A stretch of DNA of 64,000 nt, from positions 1 through 64,000 of the forward strand of contig JABZFM010000008.1 in the NCBI GenBank assembly GCA_014237465.1, read 5' to 3'. Below are positions 2,391 through 32,040 of this stretch, one piece after another. Both the position numbers and the translations under genes were made by a program. The notes under the pieces were generated by a model. That model saw only the letters and a list, made by a program, of their open reading frames with translations. It had not been told where the DNA came from and did not search any database. This stretch comes from Desulfobacteraceae bacterium. Lineage in GTDB: Bacteria > Desulfobacterota > Desulfobacteria > Desulfobacterales > Desulfosalsimonadaceae. Position 1 is the first letter of the stretch; each line of letters opens with the position of its first letter.

Positions 2391-2464
2391 AGTGGAACCT
2401 CCTTTTGATTGAAACCAGTTATCGTTTTGTTCTTTAATGAAGGGTGCAGAGGAAAACCTCCAAG

Positions 2465-2482
2465 TAGTTCGATATCGAACTA
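2465..2482. promoter_or_regulatory. Perfect 18-bp palindrome, likely MarR operator
   Basis: TAGTTCGATATCGAACTA is a perfect palindrome in the gap between the MarR gene and the acyl-CoA dehydrogenase gene. A near copy (16 of 18 matching) lies immediately upstream of the MarR gene. Two copies bracketing a MarR gene fit autoregulation plus control of the downstream enzyme. Confidence 0.75.
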
Positions 2483-2496
2483 TTCGGGCAAAAAAA

Positions 2497-2925: not shown

Positions 2926-2936
2926 ATCAACATTAT

Positions 2937-2954
2937 TAGTCCGATATCGAACAA
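2937..2954. promoter_or_regulatory. Second copy of the MarR operator palindrome
   Basis: TAGTCCGATATCGAACAA matches the perfect palindrome at 2465-2482 at 16 of 18 positions. It ends about 12 bp upstream of the preferred MarR start codon, as expected for an autoregulatory site. Confidence 0.7.
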
Positions 2955-2964
2955 TGTCAATCAA

Positions 2965-3469
2965 AAAATTCTGCTCCGGTAATTTTTTCCAGCCGGAACC
3001 TTACATTTGAATATTCGTGATTGGGAAAAAAATCACAGTATAGCATAATTTCAAACAGAAACGAGGGATAAGACTTTGCTTTTTTAAAAGCTGAGTAGCG
3101 GGTCAACCTCATATATTTTTTGAATCAGGCGCGCCCAGTTTTTTCGAAATTCATTTCGCGACAGGCCTGAATGGATGACGGCCGGGATTGAAATGGTTGA
3201 AATGGGGTCGGGCCATGATAAGTTCTTGATTATTTGGTAAATGAGCTAAAAAAATGGCCGTAATTTGGTCTTAAACAAACCTTTTTGAGGGCAAAATAGC
3301 CGGTTTAAGGATTCTTAAAAAACATATTTAAAACGGTTGAAACAACGATACGTGAATCTGAAAAGATCTCATCTATAAACAAAGAACCAGACAAATAACA
3401 TCAACGGCGTCAGCTGCTTGCAGGTTGCCGTCATTTGAAATAAAACCCGCCAAAACAGACTTCCCCCCT
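2965..3469. other. Intergenic region of about 500 bp with no recognisable gene
   Basis: No credible ORF was found. At 3204-3220 it contains GGGGTCGGGCCATGATA, a member of the GGGGTC-type motif that recurs through the accessory parts of the window. The rest looks like decayed non-coding sequence between two convergently unrelated MarR units. Confidence 0.5.
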
Positions 3470-3925
3470 CTAACGGGCTGATATATGCATCATTATAACC
3501 GCCCGAAACACCTCGGTTCCGTTTGTATCTGTGACATGAACCGTCATGGGCAGTTCCTGGGGGGTTTCCAGACCGTGTGTTGAAATTTCACAAACCGCTT
3601 TTAGGTTTGTTTTCGCAATTTTTATATAATCAACATGCATGCTTTTGGGAATCCATCGCATGGTTTTCGGCAGCGTTGCTTCAAGCATTGATCCTGCGGT
3701 CAGTTCACTGATGTTGCACATGGCAATCGCATGCACTGATTTAATATGGTTTTGCACCGATCTTCTGTTTTTCATGGTAATTTCACAATACCCGGGCCTC
3801 AGTTCGCAAAAAAGAGGCCGGATTGTCTTAAAATAAGGGGCTTTCATACATACCAGGGTTGAGAAGATGCGTTTTCCGCCCGGCAGTTTTGTGCATTTGG
3901 TGTAAACATCCATGAGTTTGTTCAT
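3470..3925 (-). CDS. DUF4442/hotdog-fold thioesterase-like protein
   Basis: About 151 aa from the chosen start. The core ELRPGYCEITMKNRRSVQNH, then VHAIAMCNISELTAGSMLEA, resembles the DUF4442 branch of the hotdog thioesterases (PaaI-like), which hydrolyse or bind acyl-CoA thioesters. An in-frame ATG exists further upstream (3976), but the internal ATG at 3923-3925 has an AGGAGG site 6-7 nt ahead and gives the usual N-terminus MNKLMDVY. It follows a MarR gene on the same strand and probably forms a two-gene regulator/thioesterase unit. The substrate is unknown. Confidence 0.75.
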   Translation of the reverse strand: MNKLMDVYTKCTKLPGGKRIFSTLVCMKAPYFKTIRPLFCELRPGYCEITMKNRRSVQNHIKSVHAIAMCNISELTAGSMLEATLPKTMRWIPKSMHVDYIKIAKTNLKAVCEISTHGLETPQELPMTVHVTDTNGTEVFRAVIMMHISAR

Positions 3926-3952
3926 TACATTCCTCCTGTTTATTTGCTTGCA

Positions 3953-3982
3953 AATTACAATATTGGATAGGGTCAAATATTT
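3953..3982. promoter_or_regulatory. Repeat of the MarR upstream sequence, candidate operator
   Basis: This 30-bp stretch in front of the thioesterase start matches the stretch upstream of the MarR gene (4443-4472) at 21 of 30 positions, including the shared blocks ACAATA and TCAAATATTT. Duplication in front of both genes suggests a shared regulator site. Confidence 0.4.
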
Positions 3983-4000
3983 CTTTAAAAAAAATCCTAC

Positions 4001-4423
4001 CTACTTAAATTTATAGAAAAAGCTTTCAATCACGGTCTTAAAACTCTTAATTTCGCTTTCAGTAAATCCGTCCCTGATTTTATCATTTGCCTGTTTTGAG
4101 ATATTTTTCGCTTTTTCAGACTGTTCACATCCTTTTTCTGTTATCCCGATCAGGTATTGCCGACGATCTGAAGGATTCATCTGCCTGAACGCAAGCCCTG
4201 ATTTTTCGAGCCGGTCCACCAGTCGCGTGATTGCTGAATTGTCAATATCAAGTATTTTGCTCAGTTCATTCATCGGCCTTAAATCTTTTTGCCCAAGCAG
4301 AAAGAGTATCCCCATCTGGCCCGGAGAAATATGAACGCCCGCTTCGGAAAATTTTTTCTTCAGGTAATTTGAAAACTTGTGCTGAGCTTTGGACAGCATA
4401 AATATTAATCGGTCATCCATCAT
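4001..4423 (-). CDS. MarR-family transcriptional regulator
   Basis: 140 aa. The winged helix-turn-helix reads RPMNELSKILDIDNSAITRL with the wing NPSDRRQYLIGITEKG. This is a different lineage from the MarR proteins at 2.5 and 36 kb, since helix and wing residues differ. It sits upstream of the DUF4442 thioesterase on the same strand, with a short gap that contains a partial repeat of its own upstream region. It is probably an autoregulated repressor of that thioesterase; the ligand is unknown. Confidence 0.9.
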   Translation of the reverse strand: MMDDRLIFMLSKAQHKFSNYLKKKFSEAGVHISPGQMGILFLLGQKDLRPMNELSKILDIDNSAITRLVDRLEKSGLAFRQMNPSDRRQYLIGITEKGCEQSEKAKNISKQANDKIRDGFTESEIKSFKTVIESFFYKFK

Positions 4424-4442
4424 ATTATCCTTATTGTTTGTT

Positions 4443-4472
4443 TAATACAATAGTTGACTATATCAAATATTT
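4443..4472. promoter_or_regulatory. Upstream region of the MarR gene, candidate operator
   Basis: An AT-rich 30-bp stretch repeated in front of the thioesterase gene (3953-3982). It lies 20 bp before the MarR start codon, where an autoregulatory site would be expected. Confidence 0.4.
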
Positions 4473-4626
4473 TGTCAACATTTTTCTTTTTTATTTATTT
4501 TTGGGATATTTATTTTCAAATATTCAATGGGTTATATTGATATCAAAATGTATATGGTGTTCCCGGAATTGTTAATTTGTTAACTTGGCCCGACCAGAAT
4601 TCAAAGAAATTGGTGTCAAAGCATGC

Positions 4627-4650
4627 AATAGCCATATAAATAGCCATATA
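4627..4650. repeat. Perfect 12-bp tandem repeat upstream of brnT
   Basis: AATAGCCATATA occurs twice head to tail, followed by a TTGACT -35-like box at 4657-4662, about 40 bp before the brnT start. Tandem direct repeats next to the promoter are typical binding sites for ribbon-helix-helix antitoxins such as BrnA, so this is a candidate autoregulatory operator. Confidence 0.45.
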
Positions 4651-4691
4651 AATATATTGACTTAAATCTTAATCTGCCGTACCTTAATCAT

Positions 4692-4985
4692 ATGACAAAA
4701 CGATCTGATTTTGAGTGGGATTCCGCTAAGGACCAGTTGAATCAAAAAAAGCATGATGTCTCCTTTGCATTAGCGCAGTTTGCTTTTCTGGATCACTATC
4801 GTGTCATATTGGAGGATCTTGATCACAGCGATGATGAAAAACGATATTATTGCCTTGGCAAAGTCACGGGTGGAATTATGACCGTAAGATTTACCTATCG
4901 AAAAAACAAAATCAGAATCATTGGTGCCGGATATTGGCGGAAGGGAAAGAAGATATATGAAAGAGAAAATAAAATACACGGATGA
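4692..4985 (+). CDS. brnT: BrnT-family type II toxin (RelE-fold RNase)
   Basis: 97 aa, the usual BrnT length. The opening FEWDSAKDQLNQKKHDVSF is the hallmark BrnT N-terminus (a W-D-x-x-K-x-x-x-N-x-x-K-H pattern). The central strand region RYYCLGKVTGGIMTVRFTYR and the tail IRIIGAGYWRKGKKIYE fit the RelE-like fold. BrnT toxins cleave RNA and arrest growth until bound by BrnA. The next gene starts 28 bp before this one ends, so the pair is translationally coupled. No clear ribosome-binding site precedes the ATG. Confidence 0.9.
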   Translation: MTKRSDFEWDSAKDQLNQKKHDVSFALAQFAFLDHYRVILEDLDHSDDEKRYYCLGKVTGGIMTVRFTYRKNKIRIIGAGYWRKGKKIYERENKIHG

Positions 4986-5184
4986 ACCTATCGGAAAGGT
5001 GAAGGTTATTCCCGACTTCCTTCCTTCACCTAGAGAGCTTGCCCTGAAAGACGAAACAGTTAAGGTCACTATTGCTCTCAGCAAAACGAGCGTTGAATAT
5101 TTTAAAAAAGAGGCAAAAAAATATAATACTCAATATCAGAAAATGATTCGCAGACTGTTGGATGAATATACAGCCCATCAATAG
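4957..5184 (+). CDS. brnA: BrnA-family antitoxin
   Basis: 75 aa from the ATG at 4957, inside the end of brnT; an upstream in-frame ATG at 4921 lies deeper in brnT and is less likely. The C-terminal half, VKVTIALSKTSVEYFKKEAK followed by QYQKMIRRLLDEY, has the strand-helix-helix layout of the ribbon-helix-helix DNA-binding domain used by BrnA proteins to dimerise and repress their own promoter. The N-terminal half should wrap the toxin. Confidence 0.85.
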   Translation: MKEKIKYTDEPIGKVKVIPDFLPSPRELALKDETVKVTIALSKTSVEYFKKEAKKYNTQYQKMIRRLLDEYTAHQ

Positions 5185-5290
5185 CATCGAGTCCATAGCA
5201 TGCTGCTGGTAGAGACGCGCGAAAGACAGCGCGCTCCATACCAGGGCGTTATACGTATTCAAATGACATCGAGAATGAGTTGTCTGTAAA

Positions 5291-5503
5291 ATGAGAGAAG
5301 TTGAAATTTCAGAAGAGCCCATTGAACTCTATAAAATCTTGAAATTCGAAAATATGGTCGGTAGTGGCGGCGAAGCGAAATTTGTAATCTCGGAAGGTCA
5401 AGTTGTAGTCAATGGGAAGGTCGAAACCAGAAAACGGAAAAAGATCTTTTCAGGAGATGTTATAGAGTTTGGGAAAGAGATAATTCGTATACAAGTCAAG
5501 TGA
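5291..5503 (+). CDS. Small S4-domain RNA-binding protein (YbcJ-like)
   Basis: 70 aa that are almost entirely one S4 domain: ELYKILKFENMVGSGGEAKF, then ISEGQVVVNGKVETRKRKKI and GDVIEFGKEIIRI. The order LxxFLKxxxxVxSGGxAKxxI, then VxVNG, is typical of YbcJ/YaaA-type stand-alone S4 proteins, which bind structured RNA. A role in ribosome assembly or tRNA handling is usual for the family but unproven here. It is an island passenger with no obvious operon partner. Confidence 0.85.
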   Translation: MREVEISEEPIELYKILKFENMVGSGGEAKFVISEGQVVVNGKVETRKRKKIFSGDVIEFGKEIIRIQVK

Positions 5504-5526
5504 AAATATTAATTGGCTGGCTCGAA

Positions 5527-5606
5527 GAAAATTTAGCAGCAGCGCAACGCAGCCAGCCTGAGGCGGATTTACGAAGCCAGCAATTAGCGCGACATCCTAA
5601 ATTTTC
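5527..5606. repeat. Imperfect long inverted repeat
   Basis: GAAAATTTAG (5527-5536) is repeated in inverted form as CTAAATTTTC (5597-5606), with inner blocks AGCCAGC and GCTGGCT-type sequence nearby. It lies just downstream of the S4 gene and could form a hairpin. No T-run follows, so a simple terminator is not supported. Confidence 0.35.
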
Positions 5607-5811
5607 CCAATAATTATGTATGGATGTCCCTGGAATTGCCGGAATTTCCGGAATTTCGAGACGTTCACGTGCTGTTGAATGCTGGAATACTGCAAAAACC
5701 GATAAGGGCCAAATCGAATTTCCTTTTGATACCGTGCATGTGGATTTTATGCTACAAGCGGCTTGAAAGATTCCACCATTTATTCATTAAGGCATCCCCT
5801 GGATTATATTT

Positions 5812-7011
5812 TCATTTGATTTTTTTTCTTACCGAATCCGGCGTCCACCATCTATTCTCGATCCTTCGTTTCAAGTCTTCCTTTGTAATTAAGCAATTAA
5901 TATTTTTTCTTATTTTTTTCAGGTAGGCGGCATCATCTCCAATATTTTCAAAACGATTCACAATATCTTCAACAGGTCCAATTTCAACGCCGACCCATTG
6001 GCGATTTTTTATTTCCGATACCGCATAGGTCGTACCAGACCCGCCAAAGGGATCAAAGACGATATCTCCCTCGTCAGATGCCATCTCAATAATACGATCC
6101 AGAAGCTTAATTGAAAGCTCATTGGATCCATTTCGTTTTTTATATTTTTTATGCCTGACAGGGGGAATATCCAGCCAGACATCTGTAATGTTAATGCCGT
6201 CCGGATTCATTTTATGCTTATATCCGCCATAATCCTTCAGATCGCCCACACAATGGGGGCATATGTTCATGGGCAACCGGTCTGGGTGGAATCTGGCAGG
6301 TTTTTCACCCTTGCAATAATATAAAAGTGAATAATGTGACGGATAAAGCCTCCCTTTTATGGGCAACGTATATTTGATATCAACCGCAATCCAATGCCTG
6401 AATGTCAATCGCCCGTTCAGATATCCCGACATGTGAGTGTTCCACTTCGGTAGGTTCCAGCTAAAGAAACTTCCTCCCGGTTTCAGGATTCGAATGCATT
6501 CATCAGCCCATTTTGTACACCATTTGAGATACTGATCAGCTTTTAAATTGTCATCGATTTTTGATGGGTAAAGCTTTTTTAAATTAAATGGCGGATCTGC
6601 AAATATCAGATCAATGCTGTCGCTATCCATATTTTTCATCAAAGAGAGGCAGTCCCCCTGGTATAATTTGCCTAATGTTGTTTCATAAACCAGAGAAGGC
6701 ATGGAAGGCATTTCATCCGGATTTTCGATCTGCGGTTTGATAAGCGAATAAATCTGTTTTGCATTTTTTTGAATCAGAGATGTAATACGGTTATCCATTA
6801 CCCCCATTTGTATCATTAATTCTGCTTCATTTATTCCAGTGGCATCACGGATCAATTTCAGATCATTTCCGGTGGGGATTTTATTGCATTTATTATAATA
6901 CCTGAGCCTGTCCACCGGTATTCCAACAGCACGTGCAAATCGATGCAGCGCCAGATTATCTGTTGATTTAATTTCAAGGGCATCAAAAAATAAATTTTTC
7001 ATATCGATCAT
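5812..7011 (-). CDS. Type II DNA methyltransferase, beta class (DPPF)
   Basis: 399 aa. The N-terminal 70 residues resemble a helix-turn-helix module (ALHRFARAVGIPVDRLRYYN). The catalytic motif IV, DPPF, is at residues 139-142 and the SAM-binding motif, DPFGGSGTT, at about 320-328, so motif IV precedes motif I, the permuted order of the beta class (N6-adenine or N4-cytosine). A CPHC pair at 251-254 may bind zinc. It diverges from the C-R-M cluster across a 182-bp gap holding a C-box, which marks it as part of that restriction-modification system. An internally deleted copy lies inverted at 33584-34126. Confidence 0.9.
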   Translation of the reverse strand: MIDMKNLFFDALEIKSTDNLALHRFARAVGIPVDRLRYYNKCNKIPTGNDLKLIRDATGINEAELMIQMGVMDNRITSLIQKNAKQIYSLIKPQIENPDEMPSMPSLVYETTLGKLYQGDCLSLMKNMDSDSIDLIFADPPFNLKKLYPSKIDDNLKADQYLKWCTKWADECIRILKPGGSFFSWNLPKWNTHMSGYLNGRLTFRHWIAVDIKYTLPIKGRLYPSHYSLLYYCKGEKPARFHPDRLPMNICPHCVGDLKDYGGYKHKMNPDGINITDVWLDIPPVRHKKYKKRNGSNELSIKLLDRIIEMASDEGDIVFDPFGGSGTTYAVSEIKNRQWVGVEIGPVEDIVNRFENIGDDAAYLKKIRKNINCLITKEDLKRRIENRWWTPDSVRKKIK

Positions 7012-7126
7012 ATCACCTGCATCCGCAGTGATGAGGGATGCAGCGCAGCGAAGAAATTGGACTTTTTAAGAAGCCATCTGATTATGAGTACCACAATCCC
7101 CTCTTTCAATCAATTATTTTTTTGCG

Positions 7127-7149
7127 GACTATAGTCTGTAGATTAAATC
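7127..7149. promoter_or_regulatory. C-box, operator of the restriction-modification controller
   Basis: GACTATAGTC (perfect palindrome, 7127-7136), a 4-bp spacer TGTA, then GATTAAATC. This is the two-site layout of C-protein operators (GACT-N2-AGTC followed by a weaker second site). It lies 45-65 bp upstream of the XRE gene start, between it and the divergent methyltransferase. Confidence 0.75.
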
Positions 7150-7193
7150 GTATTTTATCTTGTATATATGTTTAACCTAAGGAGGATCTTCAT

Positions 7194-7433
7194 TTGAAGC
7201 CGGAAAATGCATTTGGTCAGGCACTTCGTCATTTTAGGAAAAAAGTAAATCTTTCCCAGGAAAAGCTTTCCCAAGAAAGTGGTCTTGATCGGAGCTATAT
7301 CTCACTCCTGGAAAGAGGACTGAGACAACCTTCATTGACCAGCATTCTGAAACTATCAAAAGCGCTCAAAATCTCATCTGCAACTATCATTTCAAAAGTA
7401 GAGGCCTTGCTCAGTGAAAATAAAACAAATTGA
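7194..7433 (+). CDS. Restriction-modification controller (C) protein, XRE family
   Basis: 79 aa made up of one XRE helix-turn-helix: LSQEKLSQESGLDRSYISLL then ERGLRQPSLTSILKLSKAL. This is the standard size and sequence style of C proteins, which activate the restriction gene and autoregulate from a C-box. The start is TTG at 7194 with AAGGAGG 8 nt upstream (7179-7185); a C-box lies upstream at 7127-7149. The next gene, the endonuclease, begins 20 bp before this one ends, as in BamHI-like loci where C overlaps R. Confidence 0.92.
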   Translation: MKPENAFGQALRHFRKKVNLSQEKLSQESGLDRSYISLLERGLRQPSLTSILKLSKALKISSATIISKVEALLSENKTN

Positions 7434-8010
7434 TTTCCTTATTCAAAAAGGAAATTTCAGTCATTCTGATGAATTTGAAAATATTTTAAATGAAGTCAAA
7501 ACCGCTGTTAAAGCAGTTGTCTGGCCTCTGGGAAGCAATCGTTTTACACTCTATCCCAAAAAAAATGCCAGCGGCGTTGTTCCCATTAAAAAAGAATTCA
7601 TGAGTGTTCTGGTTCAGCAAGACTGGATGCTGGAACATCGAATGTCAATCGCTTCAAGGATCAGACCGGGTCCAATTGATGCGGTAAAAAAATTATCCAA
7701 TGGGCAATTTTTTGCCGTTGAATGGGAGACCGGCAATATTTCATCAAGCCACCGGGCGATAAACAAAATGGCCGTCGGCCTGTTAGACGGCGTGCTGGCA
7801 GGTGGTATTTTAATCCTTCCCTCACGGGAAATGTATCAATATTTGACAGACCGAATCGGCAATTACGCTGAAATTGAACCTTATTTTCCTGTGTGGCGAA
7901 ATTTGTCGATCAATAAAGGCGTTCTTGCTGTCATCGAAGTTGAACATGACGCGATATCCCTTGATATCCCACCTATTAAAAAAGGGACTGACGGCAGAGC
8001 GCTCAGGTAA
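7414..8010 (+). CDS. Type II restriction endonuclease, BamHI/BglII-like (ExE motif)
   Basis: 198 aa starting with GTG inside the end of the C gene. The catalytic region is PIDAVKKLSNGQFFAVEWE: Asp89 followed by Glu103-x-Glu105 at the end of a predicted strand, the D...ExE arrangement known from BamHI-type members of the PD-(D/E)xK superfamily. The next stretch TGNISSSHRAINKMAVGLLD is conserved in my memory of such enzymes. Function is cleavage of unmethylated DNA at a short palindrome; the recognition site cannot be read from sequence. The endonuclease call also rests on its place between a C gene and a methyltransferase. Confidence 0.8.
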   Translation: MKIKQIDFLIQKGNFSHSDEFENILNEVKTAVKAVVWPLGSNRFTLYPKKNASGVVPIKKEFMSVLVQQDWMLEHRMSIASRIRPGPIDAVKKLSNGQFFAVEWETGNISSSHRAINKMAVGLLDGVLAGGILILPSREMYQYLTDRIGNYAEIEPYFPVWRNLSINKGVLAVIEVEHDAISLDIPPIKKGTDGRALR

Positions 8011-8025
8011 AAAATAATCGAAAAA

Positions 8026-9414
8026 ATGCAAGACCCTCAAGAAAATAGTATAAACCCGGAAACGATTCTTTCCAAAGGCATGTTCCATCGCCTTTTCCCG
8101 AACAATCTGGTTCTCACCCCCCAATTGAATGAAGTTTATGAACTTGCGCTTGCCTATTATGAAAGCAAGATATTAACCGAAGCAGAACTCGTTCAAAACG
8201 GAGCTTATTTTGCCCGGGTGGGGAATCTGTTCACCAACCATTATCTCATGTGTACAGGGGAATCGGTTCGACTGCCACAGCATTCTTCATCCCGCCTGAA
8301 ATCTTTTTTTGAAAAAAACCAGTTCCGCACAGGGTATGCTTCCCATGGCCTGTTCCCTTATCGTGGAAAGTTTCATCCCCAAATGATTAAAGCCCTGATA
8401 AATGTCATGGGATTAAAGCCCGGAGATACGGTACTGGACCCAATGATGGGATCAGGAACTGTTCCGGTTGAAGCAAGTCTAATGGGCGTAAAATCAATCG
8501 GGCTGGATGCAAGCCCTTTCTGTCGATTCATGACTCAAGTGAAATATAATGCCCTTACACTCCCGATTAAACCCCTTGATCTGGCATTGAAAAAAACTGA
8601 AAAGATATTTGAGCTTTTTTCACATGTTACCGGTCGGCCTGGCTCGGACAGCAAAATTGCTAAGACGTCCAACCCAGCCCCCAAAACCGTTATTCATGAA
8701 TCTACAACCGGTTCCGGATCATCACCTATGGATCAGCTGGCAGATCTTATCGGCACTGACAAATCAGAAGTCCTGGATTTTCTAATACTGGCCTATCTGG
8801 ATAGTGTCGGATATTCGGAAAGAAGCAAGCGGAAATCTCCATTGACACTCTTTCAGGCCATCCTTGAACGCTATGTTTTTGTTGTAAAAAAAATTCAGCA
8901 TGTGCTTCAAGATTCTAAATCCAATATCGCAACTTCCGCAATATTAACAGGAGATGCCCGTTCAATGGAACTTGATGATCAAAGTATGGACGGAATTATA
9001 TTTTCACCGCCATACAGCTTTGCCATCAATTATTTAGAAAATGACGAATATCATCTTAATTTTATGGGCGTGAATATTGATCAGCTAAAAGAAAAGATGG
9101 TGGGCCTTCGTGGGAAAACGGTCAAAGAAAAATATAAATTGTATATCGAAGACATGGGCAGGGTTCTTTCAGAATGCGCCCGCGTATTAAAACCCGCTTG
9201 TTTTTGCACGATTATTATCGGAACAAATGACAATCAATTGAGCAAGGCACTCGGTATTCCCAAAGATCAAGTAAATGGGCTCCACAAAATTATCATAGAT
9301 CTTGCCACAAACCACGGCTTCTCACCCATAAGGATGCTTTCACGACAGATTTCCGGAATCGCCAATACAATGAGAAATGAATATATTGTTATGTTGAAAC
9401 GTTTGCAGGCTTAG
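8026..9414 (+). CDS. Second DNA methyltransferase (SPPY, probably N4-cytosine)
   Basis: 462 aa, starting 15 bp after the endonuclease stop. Motif I is VLDPMMGSGT (residues 136-145) with the acidic partner Asp161 in GLDAS. Motif IV is SPPY at 327-330, the form usual for N4-cytosine enzymes. The long stretch between them (about 170-310) is poorly conserved and could be the target recognition region. The motif order (I before IV) differs from the divergent methyltransferase at 5812-7011, so the two are not duplicates. Together they could methylate the two strands of an asymmetric site, or two different bases of one site. Confidence 0.88.
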   Translation: MQDPQENSINPETILSKGMFHRLFPNNLVLTPQLNEVYELALAYYESKILTEAELVQNGAYFARVGNLFTNHYLMCTGESVRLPQHSSSRLKSFFEKNQFRTGYASHGLFPYRGKFHPQMIKALINVMGLKPGDTVLDPMMGSGTVPVEASLMGVKSIGLDASPFCRFMTQVKYNALTLPIKPLDLALKKTEKIFELFSHVTGRPGSDSKIAKTSNPAPKTVIHESTTGSGSSPMDQLADLIGTDKSEVLDFLILAYLDSVGYSERSKRKSPLTLFQAILERYVFVVKKIQHVLQDSKSNIATSAILTGDARSMELDDQSMDGIIFSPPYSFAINYLENDEYHLNFMGVNIDQLKEKMVGLRGKTVKEKYKLYIEDMGRVLSECARVLKPACFCTIIIGTNDNQLSKALGIPKDQVNGLHKIIIDLATNHGFSPIRMLSRQISGIANTMRNEYIVMLKRLQA

Positions 9415-9439
9415 ACTTATGTATTCTGGTATTAATGAA

Positions 9440-10384
9440 CTATATAAACGATTCAAAATATTGAGGATAATACCTATAATATTGTTCATAAGCTTTAAGT
9501 TTTTCAGGGGCAATTTCAAACTCGTCTAACTTTTTATCGATCTGAGGTATCAAGCTGTCAAAATGCATCTTTTCACGCGGAGTTAAAATTGGCAGTTTTA
9601 TTTTAACAAAAGTGTCGTCGCTTGATATATACTTTAGGTCATAAATTCCTGTATCACTGATCTTTTTCTTACTTTTTCCAAAAATACAGCCGTAGGTATA
9701 CATCTGAGATGTATCTTCATAAATAAAGTTGAAGATTTGATAAAAGTTTAAATCCCTAAAACGTAAACAATCCCTTATTATTTCGCTTATTATTTTAAGC
9801 AGAATTTTTGGGAATTTTTTTTTGGACATGTCAGACGTCTTAATATCTGGAGGATAATGAGGGTGAATTTCTTCTTTCAGATTAGCGAGACGAACATTCA
9901 TCCTTTGCATTTCATCTTCGGGGAAACCATCATCAAACTTTTTTGGTTCTGCATCGATAGTAAGCAAAAGAATAACGCCAGGCCGGGCATTGTCACATAC
10001 AATCTTTATATCATCGATAATAGAGGATGAAATCTTATAATCATAATCAAGCCAGATAAAGTAGTCATTGGTCCATGGTAAGGAAGGTAATATATCAGTC
10101 GAAAAACCCGGTTGAATATCGATAAAGCTGTATGGCTTATTAAATTCAAACCTTTTGATTTTATCTTCTTCCTTTTCAAAGGAAATCATTTCACTAATTC
10201 TTAAAAACTTGTGTACCATCTGAAAGTCAACAAAATATCTTGAACCCATGCCAATATATGTATACTTGGGAATATCATAGGTTTTGCTTAGACATTGAAG
10301 CGCCTCAATAATCAATTTTCTTTCGACCTGTTTTGCCGGTCTGACCAGGTAGTTTATTTTATCAGAGCTCCCTTTATTCGTCAT
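9440..10384 (-). CDS. Rossmann-fold methyltransferase-like protein of unknown function
   Basis: 314 aa. The N-terminus NYLVRPAKQVERKLIIEALQ is followed by YTYIGMGSRYFVDF (a GxGS-type SAM-binding-like loop at 44-48), an acidic residue after the second strand (MISFEK, Glu70), and FIWLDYDYKI (111-115), where a motif IV would sit. This suggests a class I methyltransferase fold, but no substrate-defining motif is seen. It overlaps the upstream GHKL ATPase gene by 11 bp on the same strand, so the two are translationally coupled and probably form one complex. I recall similar proteins in accessory islands but cannot name the system. Confidence 0.65.
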   Translation of the reverse strand: MTNKGSSDKINYLVRPAKQVERKLIIEALQCLSKTYDIPKYTYIGMGSRYFVDFQMVHKFLRISEMISFEKEEDKIKRFEFNKPYSFIDIQPGFSTDILPSLPWTNDYFIWLDYDYKISSSIIDDIKIVCDNARPGVILLLTIDAEPKKFDDGFPEDEMQRMNVRLANLKEEIHPHYPPDIKTSDMSKKKFPKILLKIISEIIRDCLRFRDLNFYQIFNFIYEDTSQMYTYGCIFGKSKKKISDTGIYDLKYISSDDTFVKIKLPILTPREKMHFDSLIPQIDKKLDEFEIAPEKLKAYEQYYRYYPQYFESFI

Positions 10385-11627
10385 CAGAGCACTCCATATC
10401 TTTATAGTAATTGAATGTCCTCTCTCCCAGTTCCTTATTAGACATATAAATTTTTCCCATGCATTTTTTTAAAGCATCAACTTCACTTTTCTTCTTTTTG
10501 TAAGAAATCGTTGAATAGGTGGGACGTTTGGGCACTGGCGGAGCCTTAAAATTTTGTTCCTTTTCAAGTTTAAGTATTGGTTTTGCTGTCAGTTTGCCTA
10601 AACCCTCGACACCAATAGTTTCATCTTTTTCAGTAGGATAATAACTGCTTAAATATCTAGTGTATTGTGTAGTCAAATTTCTCATTATTGGAAGGATTTG
10701 TGTGTAAACTTCAGAATCAACGTCCAAATCATTCTTTGCTGTTGTCCAGGGCAATTTGGTTGGGTCTTCAGACGCTATAAATAAGAACCCTTTAAAGCGA
10801 TTGAATTTTGGATGAAACCTTGGCACCCCCCTGGTTCCCCAACCAGTTTTTTCTGTCGTGTTTCCCGAAACAATCAATCGATCATTACAAAATATATACC
10901 AGCCTGGTTTTTTATAATCAGGATGGGCCCCAGCAATAAGTTTGGCATCGATACCATCGAACGATATTCTTTTAAACGCAGGTTCAACTTCTTCTGAAAA
11001 TGCAATTTCCAATTCATATTGTGGGACGTTAACGTCATTTACAGTAATATCTACTTTATCCTTGATAAACATATAATAGGTTTTGCTTATCCTGTTGCTG
11101 AGCTCATTAATAAACCGATCCGATTCAAACTCTCTTTTAACTTCATTTTTGAGTTGACCGATTTGCAAACTTGTGAAGGTTCCATTGCTCGAGTCTTTGA
11201 TCTCTGAAAATTGAAAATTCCAATCCTTGTTTTTCTTCCATTCCTCAACATCTATATCAACTCGGAAGTATTTGTCTCCATTGTCAGATTCAAAGACCAC
11301 CATTGAGCCAATCTTGAATATCGACCGCTTAAGCCCTATTCCATAAACACCTAAGCTGTGCTTCCCTCCTTTTACAACACCGAACCTGAAAACTTCTTTT
11401 CTTGCGGAGTCCACATCAATACCGCCACAAGTGTCATGAATTAAAAATTTATTTTTTGATATTTCCAGGTTAATTGTTCTACGCCCTTCAATATTATTCC
11501 TGATATAGCCATCTATTGCATTGTCAACCAGATCTAAAATGGCATCTGATATGTTCACATCTTTGATAAGCGTATCAAGAAAGAGTTCTTTGGTTGGGGA
11601 TGCATCAATGAGCATTTCATTATTCAT
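10374..11627 (-). CDS. GHKL (HATPase_c_3, MORC/Hsp90-like) ATPase
   Basis: 417 aa. The N-terminal ATP-binding Bergerat fold is clear: the N box AILDLVDNAIDG (29-40, with Asn36), the DTCGGID loop (65-71), and GVYGIGLKRS (93-102). There is no histidine-kinase H-box, so it belongs with MutL/Hsp90/MORC-type ATPases, which clamp or remodel on ATP binding. The middle (about 190-330) resembles an S5-like transducer domain, and the C-terminus is lysine-rich with repeated KKK stretches. It is coupled by overlap to the methyltransferase-like gene. MORC-type ATPases are known from prokaryotic conflict systems; that role here is inference. Confidence 0.85.
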   Translation of the reverse strand: MNNEMLIDASPTKELFLDTLIKDVNISDAILDLVDNAIDGYIRNNIEGRRTINLEISKNKFLIHDTCGGIDVDSARKEVFRFGVVKGGKHSLGVYGIGLKRSIFKIGSMVVFESDNGDKYFRVDIDVEEWKKNKDWNFQFSEIKDSSNGTFTSLQIGQLKNEVKREFESDRFINELSNRISKTYYMFIKDKVDITVNDVNVPQYELEIAFSEEVEPAFKRISFDGIDAKLIAGAHPDYKKPGWYIFCNDRLIVSGNTTEKTGWGTRGVPRFHPKFNRFKGFLFIASEDPTKLPWTTAKNDLDVDSEVYTQILPIMRNLTTQYTRYLSSYYPTEKDETIGVEGLGKLTAKPILKLEKEQNFKAPPVPKRPTYSTISYKKKKSEVDALKKCMGKIYMSNKELGERTFNYYKDMECSDDE

Positions 11628-11709
11628 ACCAGCACCTTAAGCATATTAATTAACTTTTATTCTAAAAACTTAAATTAATTATCAGTTAGTCCTATGGTCA
11701 GACTCCATG

Positions 11710-11853
11710 TCACCATGATTCATTAGTTGTGTTATGTTTATTTCTATAGCTTTGAATGATCCCGGCAATATCTTTTTCAATTTCTCGAAGAATTTTTCTC
11801 ACATCTATATTAAAAAGGCCATTGGGGAGATAACCAATAAAACAGGGTGACAC
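11710..11853 (-). pseudogene. Possible 47-aa gene remnant
   Basis: A short minus-strand frame starting with GTG reads VSPCFIGYLPNGLFNIDV then RKILREIEKDIAGIIQSYRN. The amphipathic helical end looks like protein-coding sequence, but there is no ribosome-binding site, no recognisable family, and a stop lies just upstream. It may be the C-terminal stub of a lost gene in a 400-bp gap that also holds GGTC-type repeats at both ends (11696 and 12018). Confidence 0.2.
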
Positions 11854-11911
11854 GCTTTTTTCTTAATTTACTGATTATATTATTAAAATTTTAGGTGCGT
11901 TGCTTTTTAGG

Positions 11912-11963
11912 GCTCTTAGAAGGGGTGTTTGATACCAAAAAGAGCCTTCTAAGAGCTGTTTTT
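11912..11963 (+). terminator. Strong hairpin followed by a T-run
   Basis: A perfect 12-bp inverted repeat, GCTCTTAGAAGG (11912-11923) and CCTTCTAAGAGC (11945-11956), with a 21-nt loop, followed on the plus strand by TGTTTTT. It has the form of an intrinsic terminator read left to right, yet no plus-strand gene precedes it. It may belong to a mobile remnant or block read-through between the two minus-strand cassettes. Confidence 0.5.
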
Positions 11964-12035
11964 CCGCATGTCAGTTTTATATTGCCTATATTAATAAATG
12001 TTTACAAGCACTCGCTTGGTCAGACCCCATTTTGC

Positions 12036-13022
12036 CTAAATCATAGTTTCTTTATAGTTAAAACCTGAAATTTTTCTCAAATCGATGTGATCTTTTTCCA
12101 ATTTTAATTTTATTGATTTAATTTTTTCCTCAAATCCTTCGTCTGATGGAAAATGTTTCATATCTATGAGATCAATTATTAGTTTGAGAGTTGTTGATTT
12201 TGGTATAAATCCATCTTCACAAATTTCTTCAATATACCCTAAACCTTCAAATTTATCAGTATCATTTGATGATAGCATTTGATTATAACTTAATATCAGT
12301 TTGTTGTATGTCGTAAGCATATTTTGAATGTCTACAGCGTCGGAACTTTTATCAATTTTGTATTTATCACTACTGCAGAGAGAAGCCCACAGTTTCATTC
12401 CAAGATTCGAAATTTTGAAATTTGTTTTGAAGTAGTTATTTTTGATTTTCGTTTTTTCAGAGTTAATATAGAGCAGATAATCATTACGATTATTTTCAAT
12501 TTCATTTTTAAAATTTTTAATATATTTATCACAAATGCTTTTAAAAGAGTCGTGCTCTGTTTTAATTAAACTTTTAAATTTTTCACTATTATTAATTATT
12601 TTTTCTCTTATTTCATAAAGCTCCTGAGATTTATTTATGTTTTCTTTCTGCCTTAAAAGGTCTTGTTCGGTTGTAAAAAAATTAATATATTTATCAATTT
12701 TTTTTTTTGTTTGATCTTCCCACTTCGCTTCTAATTCGTTTAATCTTTTTTTTTCCTCATGAATAAATTGTTTCACCTTGGATTGTTCTTCAGATAATTC
12801 TTTTTTAAATTCATGTTCAGCTTTTTTAAGATCTTTAGAAATAAGATAAGTAAAAGTTGGCAAGGATATACATGCAATTAGCGCAGTCACAGATAGTAAA
12901 GTTATAGTTAAATTAATATGATTTAAAACATTTTCTTTAATTAATAAATTAGATGGGGCAAGAAATGAAATTGATAAGACAATGATTGCGAACATTCCAA
13001 ACCCGATAGACATAGCCTTCAT
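12036..13022 (-). CDS. Membrane protein with two N-terminal helices and a long coiled coil
   Basis: 328 aa from the ATG at 13020-13022, which has AGGAG about 7 nt upstream; the in-frame ATG at 13055 lacks a site. Two hydrophobic segments (around AIIVLSISFLA and LLSVTALIACISLPTFTYLI) are followed by a highly charged Lys/Glu-rich region of about 150 residues typical of a coiled coil, then a more globular C-terminal part. The composition is very AT-rich. It is the last gene of a kinase-receiver-membrane cassette and is the plausible output or effector component. No family was recognised. Confidence 0.7.
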   Translation of the reverse strand: MKAMSIGFGMFAIIVLSISFLAPSNLLIKENVLNHINLTITLLSVTALIACISLPTFTYLISKDLKKAEHEFKKELSEEQSKVKQFIHEEKKRLNELEAKWEDQTKKKIDKYINFFTTEQDLLRQKENINKSQELYEIREKIINNSEKFKSLIKTEHDSFKSICDKYIKNFKNEIENNRNDYLLYINSEKTKIKNNYFKTNFKISNLGMKLWASLCSSDKYKIDKSSDAVDIQNMLTTYNKLILSYNQMLSSNDTDKFEGLGYIEEICEDGFIPKSTTLKLIIDLIDMKHFPSDEGFEEKIKSIKLKLEKDHIDLRKISGFNYKETMI

Positions 13023-13076
13023 AACACTCTCCTGAAAATATCTATTAGATAACAAAAAAATAGGTTTTTGATCAAT

Positions 13077-13571
13077 CTATAAGTTTTTGATATATTGTTC
13101 AAATTTTTCAATCGCTACTTCATTACTATCGTCCATTTGGTTTTTTTCGATATAAATAATCTTTGGGGACTCTGGGTACCTTTCATTAAAATAGTTAATA
13201 ATTTTATTATCTTTTTCCCTAATTGGTTTGGTTGAGACAATAAGTACTGGTATTTTTCTGTCTATCGATTTAATGGAAGAGGGTAAGTAAGCAACTGAAT
13301 TGGGTCTTAATACACGATCAATAATATTCCATCCAGCTCTAAATCCTCTATCTGTATCAGAGTCCGTAATACCTATATCATCCAAACCAATAACGCCCCT
13401 TAACATAATATCGATAATTACTAATCTAACTTCATTGCCATATTCTATAAGATTACTTATTAGTTGCCTGGGTTGCTGGCAAATTTTAACAGTATAGTTA
13501 TATTTTTGGCATACAACAATTTCTTCGATTATGTTTGAACTGTTATCTTCGAGCCAAATTATTCTATTCAT
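13077..13571 (-). CDS. Stand-alone receiver (response-regulator-like) domain
   Basis: 164 aa. It shows the receiver signature in order: an acidic pair in IIWLEDN (Glu8/Asp9), a phospho-acceptor strand LVIIDIML (Asp54), PVLIVSTK with Ser/Thr at 113-114, and a Lys in IIYIEKN (Lys143). An insertion of about 30 residues after the acceptor (GVIGLDDIGITDSDTDRG) lengthens the domain beyond the usual 120 aa. No DNA-binding or enzymatic output domain is attached. It starts 12 bp after the kinase gene on the same strand with a GGGGG-rich ribosome-binding site, so it is the partner of that kinase. Confidence 0.8.
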   Translation of the reverse strand: MNRIIWLEDNSSNIIEEIVVCQKYNYTVKICQQPRQLISNLIEYGNEVRLVIIDIMLRGVIGLDDIGITDSDTDRGFRAGWNIIDRVLRPNSVAYLPSSIKSIDRKIPVLIVSTKPIREKDNKIINYFNERYPESPKIIYIEKNQMDDSNEVAIEKFEQYIKNL

Positions 13572-13583
13572 ATCTAACCCCCT

Positions 13584-16500
13584 TTACTTTTTGAAGGATA
13601 ATTCTACTATAAATTCATGATAATTATTTTTTCTATAGGTTTTTTCAGTCACACAAGGCGAAAGAGCGATTGAATACATATCGCAAATGCCTTTAACCAA
13701 GAATAGCCCAAGGCCTTCTCCTTCTATATCCTTACTATTTGCGCCTCTAAATTCTTCATCACAAACGGCATAAATTTCTTTTGGATCCAACTTTTCAGAT
13801 ATATTGATTAACCTAAAAATGAATTCAAACTCTTTGATTTCAGTTTCAGCTTTTATTTCTGAATTTTCAATAGAGTATTTAATTGAATTGTCGGTTAAAT
13901 TCCTCAATATACGCGTTAAAGTATCATTAGGAATGTTTATATGATAATCATTCACCTTATCATAATTGAAGGTAACGGATTTTTTTTCTGCTTTTTCACC
14001 AGCATGTTCCAAGCTTAGGCTAAACATTTCTCTGATATTAACTATATCTTGTCTTATAGTTTTCTTCTCTCTAAATGCTATTAATAATATTGGGTTACCA
14101 TGAGTAGCAATTGCTTCTTCTTTTGACAACTCAGCCTTTTCTTGGGAAGTTTTCACTAAAGTTCTGAGGCATTTAGTATAGGATTTTATATCTTTTAGAT
14201 ATAAATCTTCTTGTAAATTTTCTTTTTCTAATATAAATTTCATCCTGCTAGTAATTTTTTTTGTTTGTCTAAATATACTATCCACAGCTTGTTTGATTTC
14301 GTGATTGTAATACCTTGCATTCAGCTTCTCTTTATCTGCTATAGACCTAATAGATTCAATTAACAAAGCAACCTGTTCTGCAACAAATTTTACAGTTGGC
14401 TCCCAGTAGGAGCTTAGAGGTGTTGATTTTTCAACGTCTTTATAGTAAAGACACAGATAAGGATGGCCACTTTTCTTGGGAGAATTATTAGTTTTTTCAT
14501 TTTGGATAAATATTACTGAAACCCATTTTATTCCTTTATCGATCAACCATTTTCGGTGAGGGTGGCCTTTTGCCCATTTTTCTTTACCAATATCAGAGTA
14601 TAAATTGGATAGTTCGAAACAATGAAATAAAAAACCTGGTTTTAAATTATTTATTGCATGAACAACTGTACTCGACTTGTCATCCAAGTCGACATAGATT
14701 TGATCTTCTTTTGCTATCATTAAATCATTCAAGTCATCTCTATTATGCCAGCCTATTGGAATGAATCTTGATGGCCAATCTTTTCGAGGTTGCCAGAATG
14801 TGGAAGAATATGCCAAAAAGATACTTGACAGGGACTTACACATTTCATGATATTTCTTTTTTTCTTTAATGTTTTCTTTTAATGATTTAGAAATCATATT
14901 TTGAATATGCATAAAGCATACACGCCTATAAATATGATAACCAAGTGATTCTGATACCCAACCTAATAATCTTAAATCTGATTGGCTAAATTGATAAGGG
15001 CAAGTTCCTCCAATTATTACTGTTCCAAAAATTCTTCCATAGATTCTCAAAGGAACACCTAATAACGATCTAATGTCTTTTTTAATATTTTTATATGGAA
15101 TTTGGAACTCTTGTCCAGGAGGATCGGCATGTGACCATTTTCTGCCATAAGCTCGACAAAAATGAGGAATTTTGTCATCAATTATTCTATAGCAAATATA
15201 TATTTTCCTTTTTTTAAAATCATCTTTGGCTGTTTTCATTTCATTTAAATCAAGCTTTTCAAGTATTTTGGGCTGGTTTTCTACAAAGATCGCGTTGAGA
15301 TAAAGTGATTTGTCTGAAAAATTGTAGGTGTCAATTATTACAGCGCTAGCACGTAATAAAAGACCAATTTCTTCAGCGATATATTGATCTGAGTATTTTT
15401 CGGTAAACGAATCATTTTCACCGGATTCTGGTTCAGTATTTCCAGTTATTACACCAATTCTTCTTTGGATTCTATCTCTTAATCTTAGAATCTTTCCATA
15501 GAGATATTCATGTCTAAGTGTTTCAACTCGTCTTTCCAAATCATAAGTTCTTTTTAACCATTTTATTTCAACATTGCTATTGTGTTCATTTAAATTCTCT
15601 TTATTCGTAATACACCATTCACCTATATTAGATGTAAATAAATATATATCTCCATACCATCTATTTTCAGTTAGCAGTTTTATTTTTTGAAGATGGTCTC
15701 TTTGCTTTATAGTAATTTTAAAGTTGTCTTTTTTTGATATATCTTTATCGTTGTTTAAAATTTGTTCAATTTCCTTAGACCATGCCATTCTAGAAATAAA
15801 TGCACATGTGCTCTTTTCTAAAATTGGTGGGCGGCAATTACCAACCCATCTAACATTAATAGCTCTTTCAATCGATTTAGCCGCTAATTCAAAATTATTT
15901 TGGGTATATGAAACTGGCCTGGCTGAGGCATACAACCAGATTAAATTTGGAATCCAAACTGGTGTATCTGGGATACTAAATATTAGTTTCTCGAGGTCTT
16001 TTTTTATCTGAAGCATGTCAAGTTTGCTAAGAATCAAGCTGTCTGAATCACAACTATCCTCGTCTAAAAAAGGACCACCAGTAATTATAATTTCATAATG
16101 TGAATTTAATATTATTTTTGTATAGGCTAATTTAAATCTTGGAATTATATGTTGTATTTTATTTATTTTAAGGTGCTCAGCATCTTTAAAAATTTCATAA
16201 TTTGAAATACAGAACCAATTATTTAAAGCCCGCCAATAATCCCATGTGTTCAAAGCTTCAATTAAGGGGTGTTCAAAACTGCTTGGCGTTAAGGAAAATA
16301 ATTTGTTTGATTTAGAAAATGCATTCATGGTTTTGCAATTTTCGTTCAAATATTTCAAACATGTTTCATAATTATTTTGCTTAATTACATTAAAATCATG
16401 TTGTAATTTATCTGAGTAAAATTTGTTATATCGTTTCAATTTTTTTAATGAGATTAAATTTAATGGAATAGAACTAAGCACTGAAATCACATCTTGTGTT

Positions 16501-16604
16501 GTCTCTAAAGCCCATTTTTGGTTGTATTCTTTATCTTTTAATCCTAACCAGATATCCCCATAATTTATGTTTGCGTGTATTTTGTTTTTCATTCGGTTTT
16601 CCAT
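13584..16604 (-). CDS. Large sensor histidine kinase with GAF-type domains
   Basis: 1006 aa. The N-terminal 380 residues match no family I know. A GAF domain occupies about 400-555 (IRSLLGVPLRIYGRIFGTVI), and a second GAF-like region about 590-750. The H-box is YYNHEIKQAVDSIF with the candidate phospho-acceptor His768. The ATPase domain follows, with the N box ILRNLTDNSIKYS and the G box EGEGLGLFLVKGI (961-973). No membrane segment is seen, so it is probably a soluble sensor. The sequence is extremely AT-rich, unlike the metabolic genes, which suggests horizontal acquisition. The receiver and membrane genes follow in the same direction. The start is uncertain (the Met at residue 5 is also possible). 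Confidence 0.85.
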   Translation of the reverse strand: MENRMKNKIHANINYGDIWLGLKDKEYNQKWALETTQDVISVLSSIPLNLISLKKLKRYNKFYSDKLQHDFNVIKQNNYETCLKYLNENCKTMNAFSKSNKLFSLTPSSFEHPLIEALNTWDYWRALNNWFCISNYEIFKDAEHLKINKIQHIIPRFKLAYTKIILNSHYEIIITGGPFLDEDSCDSDSLILSKLDMLQIKKDLEKLIFSIPDTPVWIPNLIWLYASARPVSYTQNNFELAAKSIERAINVRWVGNCRPPILEKSTCAFISRMAWSKEIEQILNNDKDISKKDNFKITIKQRDHLQKIKLLTENRWYGDIYLFTSNIGEWCITNKENLNEHNSNVEIKWLKRTYDLERRVETLRHEYLYGKILRLRDRIQRRIGVITGNTEPESGENDSFTEKYSDQYIAEEIGLLLRASAVIIDTYNFSDKSLYLNAIFVENQPKILEKLDLNEMKTAKDDFKKRKIYICYRIIDDKIPHFCRAYGRKWSHADPPGQEFQIPYKNIKKDIRSLLGVPLRIYGRIFGTVIIGGTCPYQFSQSDLRLLGWVSESLGYHIYRRVCFMHIQNMISKSLKENIKEKKKYHEMCKSLSSIFLAYSSTFWQPRKDWPSRFIPIGWHNRDDLNDLMIAKEDQIYVDLDDKSSTVVHAINNLKPGFLFHCFELSNLYSDIGKEKWAKGHPHRKWLIDKGIKWVSVIFIQNEKTNNSPKKSGHPYLCLYYKDVEKSTPLSSYWEPTVKFVAEQVALLIESIRSIADKEKLNARYYNHEIKQAVDSIFRQTKKITSRMKFILEKENLQEDLYLKDIKSYTKCLRTLVKTSQEKAELSKEEAIATHGNPILLIAFREKKTIRQDIVNIREMFSLSLEHAGEKAEKKSVTFNYDKVNDYHINIPNDTLTRILRNLTDNSIKYSIENSEIKAETEIKEFEFIFRLINISEKLDPKEIYAVCDEEFRGANSKDIEGEGLGLFLVKGICDMYSIALSPCVTEKTYRKNNYHEFIVELSFKK

Positions 16605-16695
16605 TTGAACAGTGTCATTGAATTATGAATTAAACATTATATTTTTTTACAATTTTCCGCACATACGTGTAATAATTGGTCCGATCAGCGAAATT

Positions 16696-16710
16696 GGGGT
16701 CAAACCTTGA
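16696..16710. repeat. GGGGTC dispersed motif
   Basis: GGGGTCAAACCTTGA recurs exactly at 19876-19890, with variants at 3204 (GGGGTCGGGCCATGA), 18733 (GGGGTCAAACTTC) and, inverted, at 12018 (GGTCAGACCCC). Such motifs often flank REP-associated transposase elements in related bacteria; no transposase gene remains here. Confidence 0.5.
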
Positions 16711-17167
16711 TTTAATGATTAAAGCACCTCCGCTAAATTCTAATCGATGCGATAATACTTTTTTTGATTCACAAGTGTTTGGGATCTGCTCTTGGCTTTT
16801 GAGGCTTTGAGTGACACCTCGAATTGAAAAATATTAACAGCCCCTCCTAAACCAGAAAATATTTTTTTGCGACATTTTTATAGTCGGCCTATTTAGCATG
16901 TCCTTAAAATATAAACAACATTTAATTTTCAACGGGTTATAATCTGATGGCTTCGAGAAGGAAAGATGGGGACGTCTTTAAACAACTCAATAACTTATTA
17001 AATTCGTAACTTCTCAATAAGTCCGGGCAGCAAATATGGCATCAAAGCTTGACACCTAAACACACGTTTCATGTCCATAAATTTCGTGTGATATCGTTTT
17101 TCAATTCGGGCAAATCCATTTGACAGGGTTTGCCCTTTTGATTTTTTATGGACATTGCGATATATTT

Positions 17168-32038: not shown

Positions 32039-32040
32039 AT

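Follow-up and report, generated by a model that had tools for sequence, protein, structure and literature searches.

GHKL ATPases of the MORC and paraMORC type have been predicted to serve restriction-modification systems, and DNA looping was proposed for them (Iyer, Abhiman, Aravind 2008, PMC2292703). The accessible text of that paper describes an N-terminal GHKL domain with an S5-like domain, and DNA methylases, Vsr and SNF2-type helicases nearby. Other GHKL genes lie near restriction-modification genes, often cytosine methylases, according to the accessible part of PMC8011034. In the GHKL-Shedu protein VcSduA, a GHKL ATPase domain is joined to an anti-phage effector and both activities are required, as mutating the GHKL or the nuclease part abolished defence (PMC12137116, accessible text). 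In this study, we analysed a gene pair in a 64,000-nucleotide stretch (hereafter the window) of a Desulfobacteraceae bacterium (GCA_014237465.1, contig JABZFM010000008.1, positions 1 to 64,000). The pair encodes a GHKL ATPase, which shares the GHKL plus S5-like layout and the neighbourhood described for MORC/paraMORC proteins, and a protein of the Methyltransf_35 family. It differs from the MORC/paraMORC proteins in that no C-terminal nuclease or TIR domain was recognised in the window ATPase, its N-box acid is Asp, and a Methyltransf_35 partner gene was not found mentioned in the accessible text of PMC2292703. In VcSduA the effector is a fused PD-(D/E)xK nuclease (PMC12137116, accessible text), whereas here it would be a separate methyltransferase-fold protein. 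The pair is probably a MORC-type restriction-associated defence with a methyltransferase-fold partner, which has no name in the libraries searched. Literature searches, with supplements and the founding DISARM paper outside their scope, returned nothing that names Methyltransf_35 or PF20553 or describes the pair.

The pair is made up as follows.

10374-11627, minus strand: GHKL (Bergerat-fold) ATPase gene, 417 amino acids, ATG start (open reading frame, ORF, and PF13589 match)
9440-10384, minus strand: Methyltransf_35 gene, 314 amino acids, ATG start (ORF and PF20553 match)
10374-10384, minus strand: overlap between the two genes, 11 base pairs (bp), from the ORF coordinates

The original prediction had described two overlapping ORFs here; both sit at the positions it gave, the 11-bp overlap was recovered, and the translations contain every motif it listed (DLVDNAIDG, GVYGIGLKRS, the GMGS loop and WLDYD). 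Because the Methyltransf_35 gene overlaps the ATPase gene, the two are likely translationally coupled. The 314-residue protein had been called methyltransferase-like. It matches Methyltransf_35 in Pfam (PF20553, E 5e-89, 299 bits versus a cut-off of 27, residues 6-312), so that this description now refers to an existing family and goes beyond a motif guess. The ATPase matches HATPase_c_3 (PF13589, E 3.8e-8) over the family cut-off, with no other Pfam domain and no nuclease domain recognised in its 417 residues. In PHROG, both pair proteins match families without a known function (phrog_20521, E 6.6e-62; phrog_19983, E 9.7e-46).

We then compared the pair with defence libraries. The small protein had no match in PADLOC or NCBIfam, and relatives from other loci did not pass a cut-off there either. 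Membership of the ATPase in a PADLOC or NCBIfam family was rejected, as its matches were weak (PADLOC ThsB, E 0.0048, and MzaB, E 0.01; NCBIfam MzaB, 13.8 bits versus 850). MzaB is itself a GHKL ATPase and this local match is the likeness to MZA; the score lies far under the cut-off, and no MZA gene was found among the ten window genes scanned. The absence of a convincing match agrees with the earlier failure to assign the pair to a named system. A histidine-kinase or two-component identity for the ATPase was also rejected, since HATPase_c stayed under its cut-off and the model resembles MORC/Hsp90-type modules.

The AlphaFold model of the ATPase had a predicted local distance difference test score (pLDDT) of 88.5, and its Foldseek matches were Hsp90, SMCHD1, MORC2, MORC3 and GyrB modules; a sequence search of the PDB gave weak MORC/topoisomerase matches. 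In the predicted layout, a GHKL domain is followed by an S5-like middle domain that resembles those of MORC/paraMORC proteins, and then by a C-terminal tail. N36, D65, G69, G93, G96 and G98 of the N, G1 and G2 boxes are conserved in at least 34 of 35 alignment rows. The MORC2/MORC3/SMCHD1 module matches and the neighbours described below fit the criterion of paraMORC1-5, namely GHKL plus S5-like domains in a restriction-modification neighbourhood. The ExxxH motif found late in the S5 domain of paraMORC2 is absent: the near-invariant columns include H272, with no Glu four residues earlier. By description, paraMORC3/4/5 carry a C-terminal nuclease, TIR or HxH part; in the window ATPase, Pfam recognises the HATPase domain alone.

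The small protein was modelled from a 38-row alignment with a pLDDT of 90.0 and a strand/helix order of b1-a-b2-a-b3-a-b4-a-b5-a-b6-b7. The model has the class I S-adenosylmethionine (SAM)-methyltransferase topology, final strand pair included, and not a fold foreign to SAM-binding proteins, as the original prediction had expected. Foldseek returned 486 PDB matches at E<=0.001. The top match was the tRNA methyltransferase Trm1 (E 2.5e-7, template modelling score, TM, 0.44), and the best 50 rows were SAM-type enzymes of the class I fold; methyltransferases made up most of them, and two rows were spermidine synthases. A sequence search of the PDB with the same protein found no match.

Residue conservation was scored in 124 Methyltransf_35 sequences, near-copies included. 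W111 and D113 are invariant (124/124), R15, K18, R22, Y43 and D53 are retained in 122 (two gaps), and position 70 at the acidic end of strand 2 holds Glu or Asp in 123. Of the GxG loop glycines, G45 is kept in 112 and G47 in 121. Motif IV is non-canonical (WLDY). The conserved GxG loop, acidic strand-2 end and W-x-D suggest a working cofactor site. Their retention in nearly all 124 sequences argues against Methyltransf_35 being a catalytically dead reader, whose SAM pocket senses a DNA mark or an infection signal while the ATPase or the DISARM/Dpt machinery acts as effector. Such a reader would explain why motif IV is unusual, why no substrate motif is recognised and why the pair accompanies effector systems that are already complete, such as DISARM and Dpt. 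However, among the neighbouring families listed (below), stand-alone cassettes have no other recurring effector gene, and we consider a dead reader unlikely.

To find relatives, we searched a one-genome-per-species collection with a profile of the small protein; 51 stretches fit the pattern, with 49 relatives. An ATPase ORF lies directly upstream on the same strand in 49/49 of these genome loci; with each ORF starting at its first start codon, the gaps run from -149 to +12 bp. One ATPase is a fragment at a contig start (L020), and two have no readable N box (L042, L053). A search of a viral collection with the ATPase profile gave 72 loci, 71 of them new, and Methyltransf_35 is directly downstream in 67/71 (its frame is split in L119). 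At 90% identity, the 67 viral-collection loci form 39 clusters and the 49 genome loci form 43. The window protein as the sole query found no relative among the viral contigs, whereas the alignment-based queries did. The homologues thus occur together and not apart, as the original prediction anticipated.

The distance matrices of the two proteins correlate with r 0.968 (n=50; L015, L020 and L040 excluded), compared with 0.38 for the best of 2000 permutations. Inside the two halves of the set, r was 0.81 (n=15) and 0.95 (n=35). This parallel evolution supports a physical complex without proving it, because the shared descent of neighbours also lifts r. Taken together, the ATPase and Methyltransf_35 genes are a real, tightly linked and mobile gene pair.

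We assigned types to neighbouring genes with BLAST, using proteins of L002, L003, L004, L007 and the window as references, and with Pfam and NCBIfam for selected genes. DNA-marking or defence neighbours were found in 47/49 genome loci, a proportion qualified below. The contexts were:

Class 1 DISARM: 26/49 genome loci, with drmA downstream in 26 and drmMI upstream in 25
drmA match alone: 1/49 (L053)
Dcm without drm genes: 10/49
N4/N6 methyltransferase at -7 to +51 bp from the pair: 7/49
Dnd-type: 3/49 (L018 complete; L021 and L022 with one Dnd-like gene each)
No marking gene: 2/49 (L013 and L042, on contigs of 6.1 and 4.3 kb)

Class 1 DISARM comprises drmD, drmMI, drmA, drmB and drmC. The pair sits between drmMI and drmA wherever both flanks are available (25 loci); the contig of L043 starts at the pair. 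A Dcm match is also present in 19/26 DISARM loci in the DNA examined. The first 25 kb of the window, in contrast, have no match to the drm proteins of L003, and the pair also occurs without DISARM. The terms 'HATPase', 'Hsp90' and 'MORC' were not found in the accessible text of a paper on DISARM-related helicases (PMC12458937), nor 'GHKL' and 'ATP-binding protein' in that of a DISARM structure paper (PMC9142583); in the accessible text of the DefensePredictor paper (PMC13092281), HATPase is mentioned in a figure legend only.

Two of the Dcm-type loci (L051, L056) lie on contigs that end no more than 0.5 kb from the pair, and DISARM genes may lie beyond. In the viral collection, Dcm is present in 66/67 loci, the remaining one (L125) having Vsr and a DrmD-like gene. 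Many of these Dcm genes are tail to tail with the pair, the same placement as methyltransferase A of the window (below). For scale, any Dcm match occurs in 12/59 genomes of the window's phylum, a rate that other phyla may exceed.

Among the Dnd-type loci, L018 (Cellvibrio sp. OA-2007, 654-17158) carries dptF-dptG-dptH-ATPase-Methyltransf_35 on one strand and dndBCDE on the opposite one. The pair directly follows dptH, and its place in the dptFGH operon puts it on the restriction side of Dnd/Dpt. L021 has a 3'-phosphoadenosine-5'-phosphosulfate (PAPS)-reductase gene read as DndC-like, and L022 a partial DndB-like gene on the other strand (30.4 bits versus a cut-off of 29.1). This context is rare (one complete and two single-gene cases of 49), and no Dnd/Dpt gene was found among the ten window genes scanned. 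In a further locus, L010, NCBIfam anti-phage DUF1156 and phospholipase-D (PLD) proteins were over the cut-off and DUF499 was under it (822 versus 1200 bits).

A quick tree built from 85 of the 86 non-redundant pairs requires at least 13 switches of partner type, with the reservation that labels of loci on truncated contigs may be wrong. The starred branches by themselves demand several switches in each of the DISARM, Dcm, N4/N6 and Dnd groups. The window pair has L011 as its sister (57% identity, support 99), a locus in which ATPase, Methyltransf_35 and methyltransferase form one unit. The homologues therefore have mostly DNA-marking or defence genes around them, in line with the original prediction, yet some stand-alone units lie between housekeeping genes. 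The proposal of a two-gene defence system is partly supported. A DNA-modifying enzyme is nearly always alongside, and the pair has also become part of DISARM, Dnd/Dpt and a DUF499/DUF1156 locus; it thus resembles a two-gene core within a larger unit more than a system that stands by itself. What the analysis demonstrates is the gene pair, its predicted folds, the SAM-type motifs, the parallel evolution and the repeated association with DNA marking or defence.

With ATP, GHKL ATPases form dimers that work as clamps. Our preferred explanation, which we hold to be somewhat better than an even bet, is that a portable defence module able to tell marked from unmarked DNA has the pair at its core, the ATPase being the clamp and Methyltransf_35 the effector. 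In this model, host DNA would be marked by the neighbouring DNA-modifying enzyme: in the window, either or both of the N4/N6 methyltransferases at the BamHI-type locus, and elsewhere Dcm, MmeI-like DrmMI or Dnd sulfur enzymes. The GHKL ATPase would form an ATP-dependent dimer and close round DNA in the manner of MORC or Hsp90-type clamps. If the DNA belongs to an unmarked invader, the ATPase would stay engaged and switch on the coupled Methyltransf_35. With SAM, this protein would then modify its target, be it DNA, RNA or protein, and so block the invader, occupying the place where other systems have a nuclease. We infer the physical complex and its ATP gating, the defence role, the clamp behaviour, the mark reading and the catalysis and target of Methyltransf_35.

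If the model is correct, restriction-like immunity would gain a type of effector in which a MORC-like ATPase drives a protein of methyltransferase fold. The model would also account for the two-gene insert in many class 1 DISARM operons, and the small, clonable three-gene cassettes would allow direct tests of the function of prokaryotic MORC-type ATPases. A bolder version is possible, and we hold it only tentatively: a nuclease-free restriction arm, indifferent to the chemistry of the mark (5-methylcytosine, N4/N6-methyl or phosphorothioate), that acts by SAM-dependent modification of unmarked DNA, with the prophage cassette of Dcm and the pair as a complete anti-phage system. In that case, the three-gene cassette would be an unnamed anti-phage system carried by, among others, about 3% of complete Escherichia coli genomes.

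Several observations weigh against the clamp-and-effector model. The 47/49 and the other context proportions are not unbiased frequencies, because the queries were alignments already containing DISARM- and Dcm-linked members. The TM-scores by query were modest for both proteins among the matches listed (0.29-0.47 for Methyltransf_35, 0.45-0.54 for the ATPase); the fold class is therefore clear and the substrate is not. Amino-group DNA methyltransferases carry the signature (D/N/S)PP(Y/F/W). This motif is absent at the corresponding place in Methyltransf_35, which is thus probably not an amino-group DNA methyltransferase. The N-box acid of GHKL ATPases is usually Glu. In this family it is Asp (DLVDN) in 119/120 ATPases with a readable N box (123 examined, near-copies included) and Glu in one; this family trait may slow hydrolysis or weaken the ATPase activity. 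The pair is optional in class 1 DISARM: a drmMI-like match was found in 41 plasmid records, and the three annotated DISARM loci inspected among them all lack the pair. Housekeeping genes, such as those for leucyl-tRNA synthetase, an elongation factor and Cys/Met metabolism enzymes, flank some stand-alone units, and restriction-enzyme models of PADLOC (types II, III, methyl-directed and HNH) were matched near a few stand-alone loci, with one member each among the first 25 of 26 families. Phage-borne Dcm cassettes could protect phage DNA instead. Finally, four viral-collection loci (L124, L127, L128, L131) have an ATPase of 573-586 amino acids beside Dcm, without Methyltransf_35.

Pfam recognises nothing in the extra C-terminal part of these four long ATPases; this part could serve as a different effector. 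A known parallel is the paraMORC-Ymh fusion, in which a paraMORC ATPase is combined with a toxin-like effector at restriction-modification loci (PMC3710099, accessible text). There the fused domain is a HEPN RNase (PMC3710099, accessible text), whereas the records of the four long ATPases have no PF09509 match. HEPN (PF09509) was therefore rejected as their extra domain, and an effector swap stays a mere lead. Separately, a LNxxxHN-like stretch was seen by eye in the extra part of two of the four. Related ATPases of 616-622 amino acids adjoin Dam-family methyltransferases on haloarchaeal plasmids (L066, 3974-9784; L067, 6971-9818), in one case next to DptF/DptG.

We also asked whether a nuclease accompanies stand-alone loci, taking the nearest ORF of at least 100 amino acids on each side and any inside the cassette. 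This gave 103 ORFs from 56 non-redundant loci with Dcm or N4/N6 contexts. The commonest Pfam families among the first 25 of 117 were phage replication protein GPA and REP_ORF2-G2P (five each), portal (four), and DUF1367 and HTH_3 (three each). Among the first 25 families of each list, no nuclease family recurs in these 103 ORFs, and the same scan found no other recurring effector gene. AspBHI-like enzymes act on modified DNA; such a nuclease gene lies past the cassette's Dcm in L017 (12216-13433).

Vsr genes accompany several Dcm-linked loci. They could indicate that the pair assists cytosine methylation in a repair or housekeeping capacity, its MutL/MORC-like ATPase working alongside Vsr or a glycosylase to limit 5-methylcytosine mutation; the HhH-GPD glycosylase of L023 and the stand-alone units flanked by housekeeping genes point the same way. 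However, most Dcm-linked viral-collection loci have no Vsr match in the DNA examined, and the pair is found with N4/N6 methyltransferases and sulfur modification as well, which makes a repair role very unlikely. L023 (6032-11758) itself holds two Dcm genes, the pair and the HhH-GPD DNA glycosylase, which is perhaps a Vsr substitute.

The pair is rare among relatives of its host. PF20553 occurs in 1/98 related genomes (the window's own), in 4/395 genomes of the phylum (own included) and in 0/14 control genomes, and the ATPase profile has a single copy in the window's genome, the window one. This rarity among related genomes and across the phylum suggests that the pair is accessory and moves horizontally. 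Elsewhere it was found beside a cytosine methyltransferase in a filamentous Pseudomonas phage record (L002) and within DISARM on a Microvirga plasmid (L003). A Sinorhizobium megaplasmid carries it too, with the two genes set about 3 kb apart by what looks, by eye, like an IS66-type insertion. In a survey of Pf prophages, dcm was reported in 21/182, pseudogenes included (PMC7549136, accessible text); the terms 'ATP-binding protein' and 'O-methyltransferase' were not found in that text.

In complete E. coli genomes, the cassette query matched 227/5,426, and 172 matches (about 3%, the figure used here) covered at least 80% of the query; the other 55 genomes may hold part of the cassette only. All matches were chromosomal and mostly near-identical, and the best 20 rows were annotated as ATP-binding protein, O-methyltransferase and DNA cytosine methyltransferase. 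In the one genome inspected, the cassette lies amid phage genes (lysozyme, holin, YdaV), with the pair genes opposite in direction.

The main rival of the defence model is that the pair serves modification. It would assist or regulate the DNA methyltransferase or add a second modification, giving anti-restriction protection and not acting as an immune effector. Phage-borne DNA methyltransferases commonly protect phage DNA, the viral-collection cassettes consist of Dcm and the pair with no recurring nuclease, and the methyltransferase fold of Methyltransf_35 itself would suit such a role. Against it, the pair of L018, a single locus, is part of the dptFGH restriction operon and not with dndBCDE, and the pair is also built into DISARM and DUF499/DUF1156 loci. 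Furthermore, tblastn matched the pair in 1/50,697 phage records (and the small protein in 2/72,556 plasmids), yet viral-collection contigs and the E. coli prophage region carry it. Because of this difference, the distribution fits cargo of lysogens better than a gene required for phage growth. We regard a modification role as rather unlikely and retain defence as the preferred function.

Around the pair, the window holds the following genes.

8026-9414, plus strand: methyltransferase A (N6_N4_Mtase, SPPY motif; PF01555, E 3.2e-14), convergent with the pair and 25 bp off
7414-8010, plus strand: BamHI-type restriction endonuclease (PF02923, E 1.8e-67; PADLOC REase_II, E 4.2e-71)
5812-7011, minus strand: methyltransferase B (N6_N4_Mtase, DPPF; PF01555, E 5.4e-38; PADLOC MTase_II, 456 bits, almost full length)

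The restriction-modification locus noticed earlier beside the pair was thus recovered as a BamHI-type nuclease with two DNA methyltransferases. The pair is tail to tail with methyltransferase A, which follows the endonuclease, and methyltransferase B lies farther out. As for a type II restriction-modification system, 5812-9414 holds a BamHI-type endonuclease and methyltransferases that may be cognate, and the pair proteins are neither enzyme. The catalytic part of methyltransferase B is 41-55% identical over 218-257 amino acids to the pair-adjacent methyltransferases of L011, L012, L014, L015, L020 and L040. No BamHI match was found in the DNA examined of these six loci (L011, L015 and L020 being short on one side). 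Since B-like methyltransferases adjoin the pair there without a BamHI match, the mark used by the window pair may come from methyltransferase B, or a BamHI-type mark may be shared by both.

Avoidance of GGATCC, the BamHI-type locus being alongside, is weak: 12 sites were counted in the 64-kb window versus 21.2 expected, and 98/100 shuffles had at least 12. The methyltransferase B region is partly duplicated at 33585-34127 on the plus strand, adjoining an AbiEi/AbiEii toxin-antitoxin pair. This second copy comprises 144 bp at 100% identity (the gene start), then about 400 bp at 91% (the end and beyond), with the middle gone. Nearby, at 30868-33542, Phd/YefM-ParE and AbiEi-like/AbiEii toxin-antitoxin pairs are near each other, the AbiEi match being under its cut-off. 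The stretch 12036-16604 contains three low-G+C genes, which encode a 1006-residue GAF/HATPase histidine-kinase-like protein, a 164-residue receiver-like protein (no Pfam match) and a 339-residue coiled-coil protein. These genes resemble the two-component-like elements near restriction-modification loci described in the accessible text of PMC8011034.

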